Source of the DNA: Actinomycetes bacterium
GTDB lineage: Bacteria; Actinomycetota; Coriobacteriia; Anaerosomatales; Anaerosomataceae
Assembly (NCBI GenBank): GCA_021372825.1
Contig: JAJFTR010000070.1
Coordinates: 1-50,399, forward strand
DNA: 50,399 nucleotides
Reading direction: 5' to 3'
Each line of letters begins with the position of its first letter. The stretch's first letter is position 1. This document shows positions 33,309 to 43,143 of the stretch, in pieces. The notes beneath the pieces are model-generated. The model had not been told where the DNA came from. It did not search any database and saw only the letters and a program-made list of their open reading frames with translations. Position numbers and translations under genes: made by a program.

Positions 33309-33682
33309 CAACGCCAGGACCACGTCCGTCTTTGGACGCATGGCTTGCCGAGATCAAAGCGACGACGGATGTCTCGGGCACGGGGATGTACCTCATGCAT
33401 AACGGCGTCGTTCGCGCGCCGTCGCGCGACGGCAGGCCGGTGAGCGGGATGACGCTCTCGGTCGACAGGGCGCGCCTGGCCGAGATCCTCGCGACTGCCG
33501 AGCTCATGGAGGGTGTCACCCATGTACGGGCGTGGGTGAACGAGGGCGCGCTTTCTGTGGGCGACGACATCATGTACGTGCTGGTCGGAGGCGACATCCG
33601 CGACCACGTCTTCGAAGCGCTCCAGGCGTTGGTGCGCATGATCAAGACCGAAGTGGTGACCGAGGAGGAGCACAGGCCCTAA
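33305..33682 (+). CDS. MoaE-like protein
   Basis: Protein of 125 residues resembling MoaE, the large subunit of molybdopterin synthase. The match is in HNGVVRAPSRDG at the N-terminus and in the core VRAWVNEGALSVGDDIMYVLVGGDIRDHVFEALQALVRMIKTE. The conserved Lys of the IK position is kept, but the usual PxWKxE ending with the second catalytic Lys is replaced by VVTEEE. No moaD, moaA or other molybdenum cofactor gene is near. It may have lost synthase activity or act in another role. The ATG at 33305 follows GAGGAGG. The stop overlaps the convergent GGDEF gene. Confidence 0.75.
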   Translation: MTTPGPRPSLDAWLAEIKATTDVSGTGMYLMHNGVVRAPSRDGRPVSGMTLSVDRARLAEILATAELMEGVTHVRAWVNEGALSVGDDIMYVLVGGDIRDHVFEALQALVRMIKTEVVTEEEHRP

Positions 33683-35349
33683 TCCGGCGCGTGCACCTGT
33701 CGGGGTGTGAGGACTCCCGGGTCTGCGAAGCGGAAGGGCACACCCTCGTTCTTGCAGGCGTACATCGCCATGTCCGCTGCATGCATCAGCTGGCTGAAGG
33801 TCTTGCCGTCTGCCGGGTAGAATGCGATCCCGATCGACAGCTCGATGGGCACGGGGCCGCTACTGGTCAAGGCGGGCTCTTCCATCACTCGCGAGATCTT
33901 TCTGGCCACTTGCGCCGCGGCCTGGCGGCTATGGACCTTCGGCAGCAGCACGGTGAACTCGTCTCCCCCGAGGCGCGCGACCGTGTCGCTCCTGCGGACG
34001 ATCCTGCTCAGTCGGCGAGCGACCTCCACCAGTAGTTCGTCGCCGACGCTGTGACCGTACGCGTCATTGACTCCCTTGAAGTCATCCATGTCCATGAACA
34101 TGACAGCGAAGCCGATGTCTTCACGCTGTGCATGAGCGACGGCGAGGCCGAGCCGGTCGTCGAAAAGAGCGCGGTTGGGCAGACCGGTAAGTGGGTCGTA
34201 GTACGCCATGCGACGGATGGTCTCTTCCGCTCGTTTGCGATCGGTGATGTCATGTCCTACCGCCTGTACCGCGGCGCGGCCATGGTACACGAGAGGGGTC
34301 GCGGCGATCCGGATGTCCACGCGGCTTCCGTCTCGGCGCACGAAGCAGATCTCGGCGGGTGAGATGGGCTGCCGGTCGTGGACCGTGGTCCGCAGATGCG
34401 AGGTGGCGATGTCCCTGCTGTCCGTGTCAACGAGGTCCATCACGTGGATGCCGAGCAGTTGCGCGGACTGGTCATAACCGAGCAGCTGGGCTCCATAAGG
34501 GTTGATGAACGTGATGATCCCCTCGATATGCACCAAGATGAGGTCCGGTGCGAGTTCGACGAGACTTCGGAAGCGTTCCTCGGATTCCCGAAGCGCTTTT
34601 TCCGCGCGTCGCCGTTCGGAGATCTCCTGGGTCAGATCGGCATTGGCTCTCTCGAGTTCCTCGGTGCGCACTCGCACGCTCTCCTCAAGGTCCTCGCTGT
34701 ACTGCTGCATCGCCAGTTCTGCGCGCTTCACGTCGGTGATGTCTTTGGATATCTCCACCACCGATTCAACGACGCCGTCGTGAGCGAACACCGGATACCA
34801 CATCCGCTCGACCCAGTAGTCGCGGCCGTTTGCGGCGGTCTGGTGCTTCACCGCTACCTGGGGCACACCACTTGCGATCGCGGACTCAAGAAGGCATCCG
34901 TCACAGGGACCGTCTCCATCGTTGAGCACAGCTTCGTGGCAAGGCTTCCCTCTCATCTCTGCGGCGGGCAGGCCCACAAGCTGCTCGGCGACGGGATTCG
35001 CGTAGGTCACCGTGAGTCCCGCGTCTATGATGAGGATGGCGGTAGGGTTGTGGTCGTACACCAGTTGCAGCTTGTAGCGCTCGTGATCGAGTTCGTGAGC
35101 GAGCATCGCGTGCTGATCTATGAGTCGCTGCGTGTAGTACCCGCCTCCGAGGGCCATCACCGCGACCAGCATCCGGCCGAACAAGGTGGGCGGACTCGGC
35201 GAAAGGAGTTCGTCGATGAATCGGCCGCCTGCGGGGTCGAGGGCGCTTTGGATGAAACTCACGCCCAACCAGTACACGATGAACGCGAGCAGGGCGAGGA
35301 GCGGCAAGTGTGGACGCCGGGTCGGTTTTGACCGTCTTGCTTCGCTCAT
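33679..35349 (-). CDS. Membrane PAS-PAS-GGDEF diguanylate cyclase
   Basis: Protein of 556 residues making cyclic di-GMP. Two hydrophobic segments (about 14-34 and 56-74) are followed by a PAS domain with an unusual Cys-rich loop (CHEAVLNDGDGPCDGC), a coiled coil (~215-250), a second PAS domain with PAC motif, and GGDEF (LGGDEFTVLLP). An RxxD inhibitory site (RRSD) lies five residues before GGDEF. There is no EAL domain. The Cys-rich loop of the first PAS may bind metal or sense redox. The ATG at 35349 has a poor ribosome binding site. It is convergent with the MoaE-like gene, with 4 bp overlap. Confidence 0.9.
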   Translation of the reverse strand: MSEARRSKPTRRPHLPLLALLAFIVYWLGVSFIQSALDPAGGRFIDELLSPSPPTLFGRMLVAVMALGGGYYTQRLIDQHAMLAHELDHERYKLQLVYDHNPTAILIIDAGLTVTYANPVAEQLVGLPAAEMRGKPCHEAVLNDGDGPCDGCLLESAIASGVPQVAVKHQTAANGRDYWVERMWYPVFAHDGVVESVVEISKDITDVKRAELAMQQYSEDLEESVRVRTEELERANADLTQEISERRRAEKALRESEERFRSLVELAPDLILVHIEGIITFINPYGAQLLGYDQSAQLLGIHVMDLVDTDSRDIATSHLRTTVHDRQPISPAEICFVRRDGSRVDIRIAATPLVYHGRAAVQAVGHDITDRKRAEETIRRMAYYDPLTGLPNRALFDDRLGLAVAHAQREDIGFAVMFMDMDDFKGVNDAYGHSVGDELLVEVARRLSRIVRRSDTVARLGGDEFTVLLPKVHSRQAAAQVARKISRVMEEPALTSSGPVPIELSIGIAFYPADGKTFSQLMHAADMAMYACKNEGVPFRFADPGVLTPRQVHAPD

Positions 35350-35544
35350 CTACTGGCGCCTGCGTTCCGTATCCCCAGTGGACACCTGGTACGTTGATGG
35401 TATCGGCGTGATCCCAGGTGTGCTGAAGCCAACGTAAGCAGTTTGTGCACCGGTTCACAAGCTACTGAGATGGCGTTCGGACAAGCGGTAGAGCTGTTGC
35501 GCTGGACGGCAGCTGTTCGGAGACACGAGGGTGCTTCCGGGTGC

Positions 35545-35550
35545 TACAAT
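35545..35550 (+). promoter_or_regulatory. Candidate -10 for lpd
   Basis: TACAAT would start transcription near 35557, leaving a 29-nt leader with GGAGG before the ATG at 35586. The 236-bp region 35350-35585 holds no gene that I can support. Confidence 0.5.
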
Positions 35551-35585
35551 CTTCCGACACGTCGGCTGGAGGGGATGGAGGCGTC

Positions 35586-36986
35586 ATGCGCATCGCGATT
35601 CTCGGCGGAGGCCCCGGGGGCTACTCTGCCGCCTTCGAGGCGTCACGTCTTGGCGCCGAGGTCGTGCTGGTCGAGCACGAACGGCTCGGCGGGACGTGTC
35701 TCAACCGAGGGTGTGTCCCCACCAAGGCGATCCTGCGCTCGGCGCAGGTGGCCGCTGATGCGCGGCAAGCCTCCGAGCTCGGGCTTGTGGCCACAACACC
35801 GAGTGTGGATCTTCCAGCGTTGCGTACGCGCAAAGAGAGCATCGTCGACGAGCTGGTCTCCCAGCTCGAGGACGCCGCGCGGCGATCTAAGGTCCATCTC
35901 GTGACAGGTGATGGCCGCCTGCGCGATGCGCGTTCGATCGAGGTGACGCTGGCCACTGGTGGGACCGAGATCATCCACGCAGACGCGATCATCCTCGCGA
36001 CGGGCTCCGTCGTCTTACAGCTACCGGGGATCGACCACGACCTTGAAGGAGTATGGACGAGTGATGATGCGGTCTCGGTGACGGCGATCCCCAATGAGAT
36101 CGTGATCATCGGAGGAGGCGTCATAGGGCTCGAGTTCGCGTGGGCGTACGCGGCCTTCGGGGCCAAGGTCGCCGTGGTGGAGCTGACAGAGCAGGTGCTT
36201 CCCGGCAACGACCGTCGCGTGGCACGAGCGACGCAGCGCTCCCTTGAGAGGATGGGCGTGGAGTTCTTCTTGGGAGACGCGGTCGAAAGCGTAGCGCCCG
36301 AGAAGGGCGCGATGCGCTCGACTCTGAGAAGCGGACGGGTGCTTGTGAGCGATGTCGTCCTGTCGGCAGTCGGGAGGGTGCCCGACGGAACGGGCCATGG
36401 GTTCGAAGAAGCCGGTGTCCAGTTCGACCGTCGTGCTGTCAAGGTGGACCAGCACCTGCGTACGAGCGTGCCGGGCGTGTATGCAGCCGGTGACCTCATC
36501 GGAGGCATGATGCTCGCGCACGTCGCCGATGAGGAGGGTGCGGTGGCGGCCCGCAATGCGGTGAGCGAGCTTGCGGCACGCACGACAGGCGAGCCGCCGC
36601 GTCTGGAGAGTGTGCGCTACGACTGCATCCCCGCATGTGTGTACACGACGCCGAACATCGCGACGGTAGGTATGACGCGCGACGCGGCGACGGGTGCGGG
36701 CGTAGACGCCGTTCAGGCGATCTCCAAGTACACGGGTAACGCCAAGGCTCTTGCGGAAGGCGAGGCGGATGGCTTCGTGCAGGTGACGGCAGAGCGCGAG
36801 ACGGGCCGTCTGCTCGGCTGTCAAGTGGTAGGACCGCACGCTGTGGAGACTATCCATGAAGTAGCGCTCGCTATGAGGTATGGGATCACCGTGCGTCAGG
36901 TCGCCGACACGGTGCACGCGCATCCCACCGCTTCCGAGGCGATCAAGGCGGCATGTCGTGACGCCGCTGACAAGTGCGGTCGCTGA
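35586..36986 (+). CDS. lpdA: Dihydrolipoyl dehydrogenase
   Basis: FAD- and NAD-dependent E3 enzyme of 466 residues reoxidising dihydrolipoyl groups of 2-oxoacid dehydrogenase or glycine cleavage complexes. The N-terminal FAD motif GGGPGGYSAAFEA, the redox disulfide GGTCLNRGC (C38/C43), the NAD motif IIGGGVIGLEFA, the second FAD motif YAAGDLIGG and the C-terminal catalytic HAHPTASEA are all present. The ATG at 35586 follows GGAGGCG. The lipoyl synthase gene starts 2 bp after its stop, so the two form a lipoate unit. No E1, E2 or glycine cleavage gene lies in the window. Confidence 0.94.
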   Translation: MRIAILGGGPGGYSAAFEASRLGAEVVLVEHERLGGTCLNRGCVPTKAILRSAQVAADARQASELGLVATTPSVDLPALRTRKESIVDELVSQLEDAARRSKVHLVTGDGRLRDARSIEVTLATGGTEIIHADAIILATGSVVLQLPGIDHDLEGVWTSDDAVSVTAIPNEIVIIGGGVIGLEFAWAYAAFGAKVAVVELTEQVLPGNDRRVARATQRSLERMGVEFFLGDAVESVAPEKGAMRSTLRSGRVLVSDVVLSAVGRVPDGTGHGFEEAGVQFDRRAVKVDQHLRTSVPGVYAAGDLIGGMMLAHVADEEGAVAARNAVSELAARTTGEPPRLESVRYDCIPACVYTTPNIATVGMTRDAATGAGVDAVQAISKYTGNAKALAEGEADGFVQVTAERETGRLLGCQVVGPHAVETIHEVALAMRYGITVRQVADTVHAHPTASEAIKAACRDAADKCGR

Positions 36987-36988
36987 GA

Positions 36989-37870
36989 GTGTCCTACGAG
37001 CACGGACAGGGCGCGAAACGCATGCCGGGATGGATGCGCCGTCCAATCGCGCACCAGGGCGACTATCGGGCGGTCAAAGGTCTCATGGACCAGCTGGGTC
37101 TGCACACCGTCTGCCAGTCAGCCAAGTGCCCGAACCAAGGAGAGTGCTTCGCCTCGGGCACGGCCACGTTCCTTGTCGCAGGTGATGTGTGCACGCGCGG
37201 ATGCCGCTTCTGCGCGGTCACGACCGCGACGCCGCAGCCGCTCGACGCCCAAGAGCCCGCGCATGTGGCCGAGGCCGTCGTGGCGTTGGGTCTCGCGCAT
37301 GTGGTGATCACGATGGTCACTCGCGACGACGTGGAGGACGGCGCAGCGGGGCACCTGGCCGCGGTTCTGCGCGCAGTGAGGCGCGCGGCGCCCAAGACCC
37401 GCATCGAAGTGCTCACGAGTGACTTCGGCGGCAAGATGTCATCAGTCGATGCGGTCATCGAGGCGGGTCCAGACGTCTTCAACCACAACCTTGAGACGGT
37501 GCCGCGCCTGTACGGCGCGGTCCGACCCGGCGCCGAGTACACCCGAAGTCTCGCCGTCTTGTCGCGAGTGAAGCAGCGCGCTCCTGAGATGCCCACCAAG
37601 TCGGGCCTCATGCTCGGACTCGGCGAGACCCCCGGAGAGGTGGTCGAGGTGATGCGTGATCTTAGAGGTGTGGGCTGTGACATGCTCACACTGGGTCAGT
37701 ACCTTAGACCGAGCGCCCGTCATCTTCCTGTCGCCGAGTTCGTGACGCCTGAGGTCTTCGAGTCCCTTGCCTGTGAGGCGACATCGCTTGGGTTCTCGGC
37801 GGTCGCCTCGGCGCCGTTCGTGCGGAGCAGCTATCATGCGGCCGAGATGGTCACACAGCCCCGAGGATGA
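36989..37870 (+). CDS. lipA: Lipoyl synthase
   Basis: Radical SAM enzyme inserting two sulfurs into protein-bound octanoyl groups; about 293 residues from GTG 36989 (GTG 36974 would overlap lpdA, and ATG 37022 is also possible). It has the LipA-specific auxiliary cluster motif CQSAKCPNQGEC and the radical SAM motif CTRGCRFC, plus GETPGEVVEVMRDL and QYLRPSARHLPV near the C-terminus. The family's final auxiliary-cluster serine is likely in APFVRSSYHA. Immediately downstream of lpdA. Its 3' end overlaps the convergent GGDEF gene by 20 bp. Confidence 0.94.
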   Translation: MSYEHGQGAKRMPGWMRRPIAHQGDYRAVKGLMDQLGLHTVCQSAKCPNQGECFASGTATFLVAGDVCTRGCRFCAVTTATPQPLDAQEPAHVAEAVVALGLAHVVITMVTRDDVEDGAAGHLAAVLRAVRRAAPKTRIEVLTSDFGGKMSSVDAVIEAGPDVFNHNLETVPRLYGAVRPGAEYTRSLAVLSRVKQRAPEMPTKSGLMLGLGETPGEVVEVMRDLRGVGCDMLTLGQYLRPSARHLPVAEFVTPEVFESLACEATSLGFSAVASAPFVRSSYHAAEMVTQPRG

Positions 37871-38894
37871 CGGCTTCCGCAGCGCGGGCCCGGCCCGACT
37901 GTTTGGCGAGGTAAAGCGACTGATCAGCGCTCGCCAGAAGCCGGTCGGCGCTCCTCGGCAATGAACCCGGAGGGTCGCACGCCACGGTACCTCCGACACT
38001 CACCGAGACCGGCACATGCGCGCCCGTGCTCGTCACAAGGTCGATCGCCCGTACGGCATGTAGGATCCGGTCGGTGAGCTGTTCGTAGTCCTCGGGTCCC
38101 GTCTCCGGTGCGATCACGGCGAACTCGTCGCCACCGTAGCGCGCGACGAAATCGGACGCCCGTGTCGCCGACTGTAACGCCTGGCCCACTGCTTTGAGTG
38201 CCTCATCACCGAATCCGTGGCCGTAGTCATCGTTGAGGCCTTTAAGGAAATCGACATCCGCGAGCAGCACGGTGAGTGGATGGCCATATCGCGCCGACCA
38301 CGCTGCCCACTGGCGCAGATGTGCGTCGAGCGCGCGACGGTTGTAAAGCCCGGTGAGCGCGTCTCGCGTCGCGTATGCCGCAAGTGTCATGTTGTCGCGC
38401 CAAGCGCGCTGTAGCATGCCCGCGAGGAAGCTCGCGAGCGAGCCGCGTTGATAGTAGTGCTCCACGGCGGCGATGACCCTCTTGATATGGGCTGAGTACT
38501 GAGCATGGCGCTGTTCGGCGCCCCCTGGTTCCGTGAGGTCGATGAGTTCGCCGAACACCGGATCGATCATGTAGAACTCGATGCGAGCCGCGAGCCCAAG
38601 CATCTGATCGGCGCTCATGCCGTCAACGCCGCTGGCTATCGCCGCCTGTAGTTCGTCGCGCAACGCGGTCAGCCGGCGCGTGAGTTCCTCGGTATCGCTC
38701 ACCACATCGGGCAGAAGGCCGCGTTCCCAGGCGTCCACGAGGTCCTCCCACCACCCTACATGGGCGCCCTCCTCCGAGGCGAGTATCGTGAATGTACGAG
38801 AGAGTTCGGGAATCGTGCATGTCCGCGCCATCGCCTCGTACGTCTTTTCCGCAAGCGAGTCCATCTCGATGCACAACTCAAGGATTGCTCTCAT
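37851..38894 (-). CDS. Diguanylate cyclase with N-terminal ferritin-like domain
   Basis: Protein of 347 residues. The first ~165 residues look like a ferritin/rubrerythrin-type four-helix bundle: E10 and E17 in helix 1, EEGAH (E41/E42 with H45, an ExxH motif) in helix 2, E106 in helix 3 and H130/H136 in helix 4. The rest is a GGDEF domain with RYGGDEFAV and an RxxD inhibitory site (RASD) five residues upstream; it has no EAL domain or membrane segment. A di-iron input would make it an oxygen, redox or iron sensor controlling cyclic di-GMP. Metal binding is inferred; the fourth-helix ligands are not canonical. I prefer ATG 38894, seven bases after AAAGG, over the ATG two codons earlier. Confidence 0.82.
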   Translation of the reverse strand: MRAILELCIEMDSLAEKTYEAMARTCTIPELSRTFTILASEEGAHVGWWEDLVDAWERGLLPDVVSDTEELTRRLTALRDELQAAIASGVDGMSADQMLGLAARIEFYMIDPVFGELIDLTEPGGAEQRHAQYSAHIKRVIAAVEHYYQRGSLASFLAGMLQRAWRDNMTLAAYATRDALTGLYNRRALDAHLRQWAAWSARYGHPLTVLLADVDFLKGLNDDYGHGFGDEALKAVGQALQSATRASDFVARYGGDEFAVIAPETGPEDYEQLTDRILHAVRAIDLVTSTGAHVPVSVSVGGTVACDPPGSLPRSADRLLASADQSLYLAKQSGRARAAEAVILGAV

Positions 38895-38938
38895 GTGCAT
38901 ACCTTTCGACCGCTACTGAGAATATCCCCTCTCCCTGG

Positions 38939-38944
38939 TAGGAT
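38939..38944 (+). promoter_or_regulatory. Candidate -10 element for leaderless UPF0280 gene
   Basis: TAGGAT ends six bases before the ATG at 38951, and there is no ribosome binding site. Confidence 0.45.
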
Positions 38945-38950
38945 TACCGT

Positions 38951-39676
38951 ATGGCGTACGAGCCGAGGACATATCGCTGGAAAGTCGATCCCGCGGGGCT
39001 GGTCACATTCAGGGTCGTGCGTGCCGAGACCGACCTTGCCGTGAGCGCGCGGCAGAACCTCTCGGAACAAGCGCTCGCGCTCGTCGACGATGCGCGCCAG
39101 GCGCTCGAGAGCTACATCGCGGCGAACCCGCGATTCGCTGAGAGCCTCGTCCCGGTGGGCGTCCCTGAAGGGGCGCCGCCGATCGTGCGTGCCATGGCCG
39201 ATGCTGCGCGCGTGGCGGGAGTAGGCCCGATGGCGGCGGTGGCGGGCGCGGTGGCCGAAGAGGTGGCTCAAGGCCTCGAGCCGCTCTCGGCGGAAGTCAT
39301 CGTGGAGAACGGGGGGGACGTCTTCTTGATCTCTGAGGTGGACAGGGTGGTGCTCCTGGGCGCCGGTGACTCTCCTTTGTCCGAGCACGTGGCGATCGCG
39401 ATCCGCGCCGAGGAGATGCCGATCGCGGTGTGCACGTCTTCGGCAAAGGTCGGTCCATCGTTGAGCCTGGGGAGCGCGCACGCGGCCACCGTGCTCGCGC
39501 GCAGCGGGGCGCTCGCTGACGCGGCGGCTAGTGCGGTGGGAAACCTGGTGCACGGTCCGGGTGACATCGAGCGCGCGCTTGCCCGCGCGAGGGAGATCCC
39601 CGGCGTGGCTGGTGCGGTCGTGGTGTGTGAAGACAAGATCGGCGCAGTGGGTACGCTCTCGCTTATCAAGGTGTAG
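38951..39676 (+). CDS. UPF0280 family protein (COG2122)
   Basis: Protein of 241 residues of the UPF0280 family, distantly related to the ApbE fold. Readable family traits are the N-terminal YRWKV strand, GVGPMAAVAGAVAEEVAQGL, EVIVENGGDVFL, VCTSSAKVGPSLSLG and a late HGPGDIERAL. In methanogens and sulfate reducers this family is genomically associated with HcyBio and NIL-ferredoxin genes and a role in homocysteine synthesis has been proposed; the same two genes lie 12 kb to the left here. That link is inference from genome association. The start lacks a ribosome binding site and appears leaderless. It is the first of a run through DUF2469 and ligA. Confidence 0.82.
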   Translation: MAYEPRTYRWKVDPAGLVTFRVVRAETDLAVSARQNLSEQALALVDDARQALESYIAANPRFAESLVPVGVPEGAPPIVRAMADAARVAGVGPMAAVAGAVAEEVAQGLEPLSAEVIVENGGDVFLISEVDRVVLLGAGDSPLSEHVAIAIRAEEMPIAVCTSSAKVGPSLSLGSAHAATVLARSGALADAAASAVGNLVHGPGDIERALARAREIPGVAGAVVVCEDKIGAVGTLSLIKV

Positions 39677-39719
39677 GATGAACGGCCGGGTCTTGGTACC
39701 CGATGTCGAAAGGGGCGAC

Positions 39720-42123
<2,404 letters not shown>

Positions 42124-43143
42124 ATGGCGACGCGCCGGATCATCGTCAATCCACGTTACTGTGACCGGTGCGGCCGCTGTCTCGAAGCGTGCCGGATCAA
42201 CGCGCTTCGCATCGGACGCGCGTACATCATGGTGGACTGGTCGCGCTGCGACGGCTGCATGGCCTGCGTGCGTGCGTGCGAACGGGGGGCGATCACGAGC
42301 AGCGCGAACGCGGCAGCTGCGGCGGCGCGGTCGAGACCGCCCCGGCCCGGCTCGGAGAGCGCACGGCCAGGCCGTGTGGCGCAGGCGAAGCGGTCGCGGT
42401 CGGCCGGCGTCGTGCCGCGGGAGCGGCCGAGTGTCACGGTCGGCCACTTCGCGTGGACCCCTCTTGAGGCGGCCGCCATGCTGTCGGTCACGTTCGCGGC
42501 TTTCATGGCCAAGGAGCTGGTGCTCTCGGGCAGTACCGTCCAAGCGTTGCCGGCCGAGGGCCTCGTGGCCGTCCGCGCGCTCGTGCTGGCCGCCTACTAC
42601 GCGGTCCAGATGGCCGTGCTCAGGTGGCTGGTCCGCCGGCGTGGCGGAGAGTTCGCGGATGCTTTGGGGCTGCGGACATCCGGCGGTGGCTGGCGAGGGG
42701 TCCTCGCATCGGCAGGATCGGTGGTTGCCGGGCTCGTGGTGACGAGGCTGGTCGCCACCGTCTACGGTCTGGCGACTCGTGAGTTCGGGATCACTCCCGA
42801 TACCACTGCGGTGACGCGGGTGTTCGGTACGACACCGGGCGGGCTTGCCCTTGCGGCGCTCATGGTGGTCCTCGTCGGTCCGTACGTGGAGGAGTGTGTG
42901 TTCAGGGGTGCGCTCCTGCGGGGGCTGGAAGCGCGGATCGGCGCATGGCCCGCCATCATCGTTCAGGCTCTCCTGTTCGCTGTGTTCCACCGTTCATGGT
43001 GGCTGCTCTTCCCGATGTCCGCGCTCGGCATCGTGCTCGGGTGGCTCGCGCGGGAGAGAGGGAGTCTGTGGCCCGCCATCGCTCTGCATGCCGCGTACAA
43101 CGCGATCACGGTCGCGGCTGTCGTACTCGTCGCACTGGAGTGA
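42124..43143 (+). CDS. Ferredoxin-domain/CPBP intramembrane metalloprotease fusion
   Basis: Protein of 339 residues. Residues 1-~60 hold two [4Fe-4S] motifs, C13-x2-C16-x2-C19-x3-C23 and C42-x2-C45-x2-C48-x3-C52, with Arg or Glu instead of the usual Pro after the last Cys. A basic, Ala/Arg/Pro-rich linker (~60-105) leads to a polytopic region (~110-338) with the CPBP (Abi/Rce1-type) motifs EECVFRG (E256, E257, R261), FAVFHRSWW and HAAYN. CPBP proteins are membrane proteases or related peptidases; a fused ferredoxin would put the protease under redox or electron-transfer control. The ATG at 42124 directly follows the ligA stop. Confidence 0.87.
   Translation: MATRRIIVNPRYCDRCGRCLEACRINALRIGRAYIMVDWSRCDGCMACVRACERGAITSSANAAAAAARSRPPRPGSESARPGRVAQAKRSRSAGVVPRERPSVTVGHFAWTPLEAAAMLSVTFAAFMAKELVLSGSTVQALPAEGLVAVRALVLAAYYAVQMAVLRWLVRRRGGEFADALGLRTSGGGWRGVLASAGSVVAGLVVTRLVATVYGLATREFGITPDTTAVTRVFGTTPGGLALAALMVVLVGPYVEECVFRGALLRGLEARIGAWPAIIVQALLFAVFHRSWWLLFPMSALGIVLGWLARERGSLWPAIALHAAYNAITVAAVVLVALE

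Follow-up and report, generated by a model that had tools for sequence, protein, structure and literature searches.

The gene discussed here lies in a window of 50,399 nucleotides, the whole stretch of DNA that was analysed, and it raises the question of whether a ferritin-like, metal-binding domain can serve as the input of a diguanylate cyclase. A review and a 2022 census of c-di-GMP sensory domains name hemerythrin domains as the non-heme iron inputs to c-di-GMP signaling (PMC9388753, PMC8846402); the census includes neither ferritin nor rubrerythrin (PMC8846402). In the literature searched, with subscription journals mostly outside its scope, we found no description of a ferritin- or rubrerythrin-GGDEF sensor. 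As argued below, we think it probable that the protein is a metal-based sensor of oxygen or redox state, of a kind not described before.

Gene, cyclase domain and neighborhood

The original prediction placed a ferritin-like bundle fused to a GGDEF domain in this span and gave no strand; the open frame confirms it, on the minus strand (Table 1). Translation starts at the ATG at 38894 or, alternatively, at an ATG two codons farther upstream (38900). Neither a sigma-70-like promoter nor a terminator could be found in the surrounding sequence, and there were no Rfam matches within the window.

Table 1. Coordinates of the ferritin-like/GGDEF gene and its parts
Feature	Position	Strand	Basis
Whole gene, ferritin-like/GGDEF protein, 347 aa	37851..38894	minus	open frame fills span
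N-terminal ferritin-like domain and start of linker, residues 1-166	38397..38894	minus	
D12, putative ligand position, helix A	38859..38861	minus	hhalign: aligned with rubrerythrin-like Glu
Y19, putative second-shell Tyr, 7 residues after D12	38838..38840	minus	
E42xxH45, first ExxH, helix B (EEGAH = residues 41-45)	38760..38771	minus	
E106, putative ligand position, helix C	38577..38579	minus	hhalign: aligned with Glu
Y133xxH136, helix D, aligned with second ExxH	38487..38498	minus	Tyr replaces Glu
Connecting helix 153-176, bundle to cyclase	38367..38438	minus	AlphaFold model
GGDEF domain, residues 175-336	37887..38372	minus	Pfam PF00990, E 5e-39
RASD (RxxD) inhibitory site, residues 245-248	38151..38162	minus	sequence
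GGDEF motif, residues 254-258	38121..38135	minus	sequence

Judged by its sequence, the GGDEF domain is intact and is predicted to be a diguanylate cyclase, and the RxxD inhibitory site that had been proposed along with it is present. The domain matches TIGR00254 with 147.6 bits, and RASD ends exactly five residues ahead of GGDEF (RxxD-x5-GGDEF), with R245 and D248 invariant (alignment A1). Together with these residues and the GGDEF motif, D213, K218, N221, D222 and D230 complete the canonical A-site and I-site set. D230, which by reference to PleD we take to be the guanine-contacting Asp of c-di-GMP-type cyclases, is kept in 59 of 61 orthologs. The same genome has eleven further sequences that match the GGDEF part. 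A PAS-PAS-GGDEF gene (556 aa, 33679-35349, minus strand), 2.5 kb downstream, encodes a second predicted diguanylate cyclase, and a homologue of it is also found near the ferritin-like/GGDEF gene in several genomes of the same family.

The N-terminal domain is present in 60 of 68 genomes sampled from the same coriobacterial order and in none of the genomes of other orders in that sample; the gene is a core gene throughout this order, whose members are little known. In 55 of 61 loci the ortholog adjoins a convergent lipoyl synthase gene, and its usual further neighbors are ligA and a divergent gene of PRK04334 type. In the window, the order lpdA-lipA, ferritin-GGDEF, PRK04334-type gene, ligA occupies 35541-42123, and many families of the order share this arrangement. 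The plus-strand gene at 42124-43143, also conserved next to ligA in relatives, encodes two N-terminal CxxCxxC...C ferredoxin-like clusters fused to an apparent CPBP-type membrane protease, domain names that come from reading the sequence by eye.

The contig search returned one full-length relative only, and the domain profile found nothing significant in other loci. Plasmids gave partial GGDEF-type matches only, and viral contigs held no relative of the N-terminal domain. No fusion was found among 279 sampled genomes of the phylum of L008, and samples of the phyla of L017 and L012 yielded no convincing fusion, their partial weak matches being mostly short rubrerythrin-like frames; these negatives describe samples and are not proof of absence.

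The N-terminal bundle and its putative metal site

The Pfam Rubrerythrin family (PF02915) matches the window protein with 21.1 bits, slightly short of the curated cut-off of 22.8. A match at E ≤ 1 is seen in 48 of 55 orthologs (best 3e-8), and one relative, L134, lies above the cut-off with 26.8 bits. The solved proteins matched by the domain profile are TM1526, symerythrin, ferritins and designed diiron bundles. By hhalign, the domain aligned with stand-alone rubrerythrin-like proteins at a probability of 98.3% (E 1.9e-14, 153 columns), a somewhat favorable figure because those proteins were themselves collected with this domain's profile; the Pfam and PDB profile results are independent of that comparison set. 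We also considered a hemerythrin identity, which was rejected, as no hemerythrin family appeared at E ≤ 10 in the Pfam scan.

Because GGDEF domains swamped the fold search of the full-length model, the N-terminus was folded alone. AlphaFold returned a confident bundle (pLDDT 91.3, pTM 0.88), and the helices of the domain span residues 2-25, 29-57, 68-86, 95-109, 112-121 and 126-147. VIA-align placed TM1526 first for this model (Z 13.8, 137 residues, 2.5 Å), followed by 3EZU (12.6) and then by Dps and ferritins, and nearly all of the best rows were ferritin-like proteins. Foldseek alone was weak, with no E below 0.001. Since helical bundles commonly give high Z, the claim to this fold is carried by the sequence evidence. 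The left-handedness of the bundle, in a model that is predicted and not solved, was judged only via the fold matches to ferritin-like proteins. Taken together, the profile matches and the predicted model support a ferritin-like four-helix bundle in the N-terminal ~150 residues, as had been anticipated. Rubrerythrin features that the window protein does not show are a score above the Pfam cut-off, a second ExxH motif and a rubredoxin-like Cys4 domain, in place of which the GGDEF domain follows.

Conservation was counted over 166 N-terminal positions in 66 relatives, with rows of known decay omitted. Five positions are invariant, namely E42, W49, E106, Y133 and H136, and W49 is the sole one outside the candidate ligand set. 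Y19, H45 and D12 rank 6th, 7th and 13th: position 19 is Y in 64 relatives and F in 2, H45 is kept in 64, and position 12 is D in 62 and E in 3. This conservation excludes chance as the source of the N-terminal motifs, including the ExxH (EEGAH) that had been noted at the outset.

In the hhalign comparison, D12, E42 and E106 pair with Glu, H45 and H136 with His, and Y133 with Glu, and the second ExxH reads YxxH in all 66 relatives. Carboxylate or His ligand positions are found on all four helices: D12; E42 and H45; E106; and H136 with Y133. E16, tried as the helix-A ligand, is not conserved and was rejected in favor of D12. The rubrerythrin-type di-iron spacing of the original prediction therefore holds in part. 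The ligand columns align with those of diiron proteins, and the site, as read from the alignment, is rubrerythrin-like but non-standard, with an invariant Tyr for the bridging-type Glu and an Asp on helix A. The comparisons made here show the order of the two domains, a cyclase motif that is intact, and a bundle homologous to diiron proteins, ligand columns included. Column homology further suggests that the six residues would form one diiron-type site, and a metal-tyrosinate may form with this unusual ligand set. With Tyr instead of the bridging Glu, two irons may not be held. From the invariant Tyr, an Fe(III)-tyrosinate band is predicted in the visible range, which makes the idea testable by a spectrum.

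Conserved ligands ahead of an intact cyclase would also suit a sensor of metal availability, in which occupancy by iron, manganese or zinc, and not redox state, is read out with the logic of the zinc-responsive CZB-domain cyclase; metal-binding CZB helical bundles are listed as input domains in the c-di-GMP census (PMC8846402). The ligand set, however, is that of O2- or peroxide-reactive diiron sites, and the conserved Tyr at the putative metal would point to redox chemistry. We regard a pure metal-availability sensor as decidedly unlikely.

Other outputs and altered sites among relatives

In a second phylum, that of a Geobacteraceae MAG, the domain is joined to a GGDEF in L115, L131 and L132, and in five genomes (L133, with the fusion at 1360-2220, and L134-L137) a short C-terminal CxxC...HGxCPxC-like segment replaces the GGDEF. 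This Cys-rich segment of about 45 residues has no significant Pfam match and is possibly an uncharacterised zinc-binding output. On the tree the five are split between two or more places, so that the pairing of this bundle with different outputs has happened repeatedly, as it does with sensor domains. The ligand columns persist where the output differs and are kept across two phyla.

The nearest and only solved homologue is 3EZU of Geobacter sulfurreducens (NP_951600.1), which has the same two-domain architecture as the window protein (E 3.4e-37 for the N-terminus with profile A3, 1.4e-61 for the whole protein). It was solved in 2008 and deposited as function unknown; the papers found do not describe its function, and a literature search under the presumed locus name GSU0542 returned nothing. 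According to PMC2954221, which does not say which domain holds it, the deposited structure contains an unidentified ligand. Such a ligand would be in keeping with a bundle that senses not redox but a small organic molecule or lipid, bound in a pocket and perhaps held by metal, as in oxygenase-like ferritin folds. The persistence of fold and fusion in 3EZU although its metal site has changed, and the presence of aldehyde-deformylating oxygenases among the weak matches in the fold list, are consistent with this. Invariance nevertheless sits on the acid, His and Tyr ligand columns and not on pocket-lining residues in general, and a ligand sensor of this type seems to us rather unlikely. The redox-sensor reading, which we prefer, would also point to a role for 3EZU, a structure that has lacked a functional assignment since 2008.

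The site is intact in 65 of 75 rows, and in all three lineages with multi-residue site changes the cyclase is altered as well. Across the seven site positions the 3EZU lineage (L116, L117) reads E, F, T, H, Q, Y, Y, so that, unlike the window protein, it carries T at E42, Q at E106 and Y at H136, together with a DGDEF motif and an altered NDxxGH. L138, L139 and L147 have lost both site and GGDEF, while L105 and L106 have changes at E42 and Y133 and a motif that is DDDEF or cut off. The longest internal branches of the tree are those of the 3EZU lineage and the L138/L139/L147 lineage. Exceptions to joint decay are L053 and L055, close orthologs with H45 replaced by N or R and an intact GGDEF, and L107, which keeps the site with a degraded GGDEF. 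Across three lineages, the alignments are suggestive of metal-site decay going with cyclase decay, and L053 and L055, with a broken ExxH and an intact GGDEF, are natural tests of whether the site matters.

We consider it highly improbable that the bundle is a structural dimerization unit with a relic metal site that senses nothing and a constitutive cyclase. The Geobacter lineage does retain the bundle with an altered site, but the six ligand columns are invariant or nearly so across 66 relatives, many of them only 20-60% identical, and altered sites accompany altered cyclases, with two such lineages on very long branches.

Proposed mechanism and comparison with known systems

Our favored reading, to which we give a somewhat better than even chance, is a soluble diguanylate cyclase with a ferritin-like, metal-binding input, most likely for iron, in which O2, peroxide, redox state or metal loss controls c-di-GMP. 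The bundle would bind one or two metal ions through D12, E42, H45, E106 and H136, with Y133 at the bridging-glutamate position. The packing of the bundle or dimer would shift when the metal is lost or is oxidized, whether by O2, by peroxide or through some other redox change, and the shift would travel along helix 153-176 to the paired GGDEF domains, moving c-di-GMP up or down. Metal binding, the nature of the signal, its transmission to the GGDEF domain and control of the cyclase are steps that we infer.

MshEN is a c-di-GMP-binding domain of type II secretion and type IV pilus ATPases. The genome contains four MshEN domains, in frames of 557-635 aa, and no match to PilZ. The four MshEN proteins are candidate receptors, and because MshEN binds c-di-GMP in such ATPases, pilus control is a plausible target.

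If the favored reading is correct, the ferritin/rubrerythrin fold has been recruited as a sensor, and the ferritin-like input would be a second, unrelated non-heme iron solution for c-di-GMP control. A broader proposal, in which we place slightly less than even confidence, is that of a new signaling domain family: a modular ferritin-like redox or O2 sensor, its metal-tyrosinate site made up of D, E, H, E, Y and H, that in uncultivated coriobacteria feeds into c-di-GMP synthesis and elsewhere into at least one other, Cys-rich output.

With respect to known systems, TM1526-type rubrerythrin-like diiron proteins (1VJX) share the fold, and stand-alone proteins related to TM1526 share their ligand columns with the window protein (hhalign). 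They differ in being stand-alone proteins of ~150-170 aa with two ExxH motifs and without a signaling output. Symerythrin (3QHB), whose site is of the oxidase/peroxidase type with an extra carboxylate, is also a ferritin-like diiron bundle, and the profile matches each of its halves, but it is not a signaling protein. In Bhr-DGC of Vibrio cholerae, a hemerythrin-GGDEF protein, a non-heme iron four-helix bundle likewise stands ahead of the GGDEF domain and c-di-GMP synthesis is redox-controlled, the diferrous form being about 10 times more active than the diferric one (PMC9388753). Bhr-DGC has a hemerythrin fold with five His, one Glu and one Asp, whereas the window protein has a predicted ferritin-like fold with ExxH and YxxH. 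By analogy, the window protein would resemble a hemerythrin cyclase in its working, yet it is not a hemerythrin cyclase.
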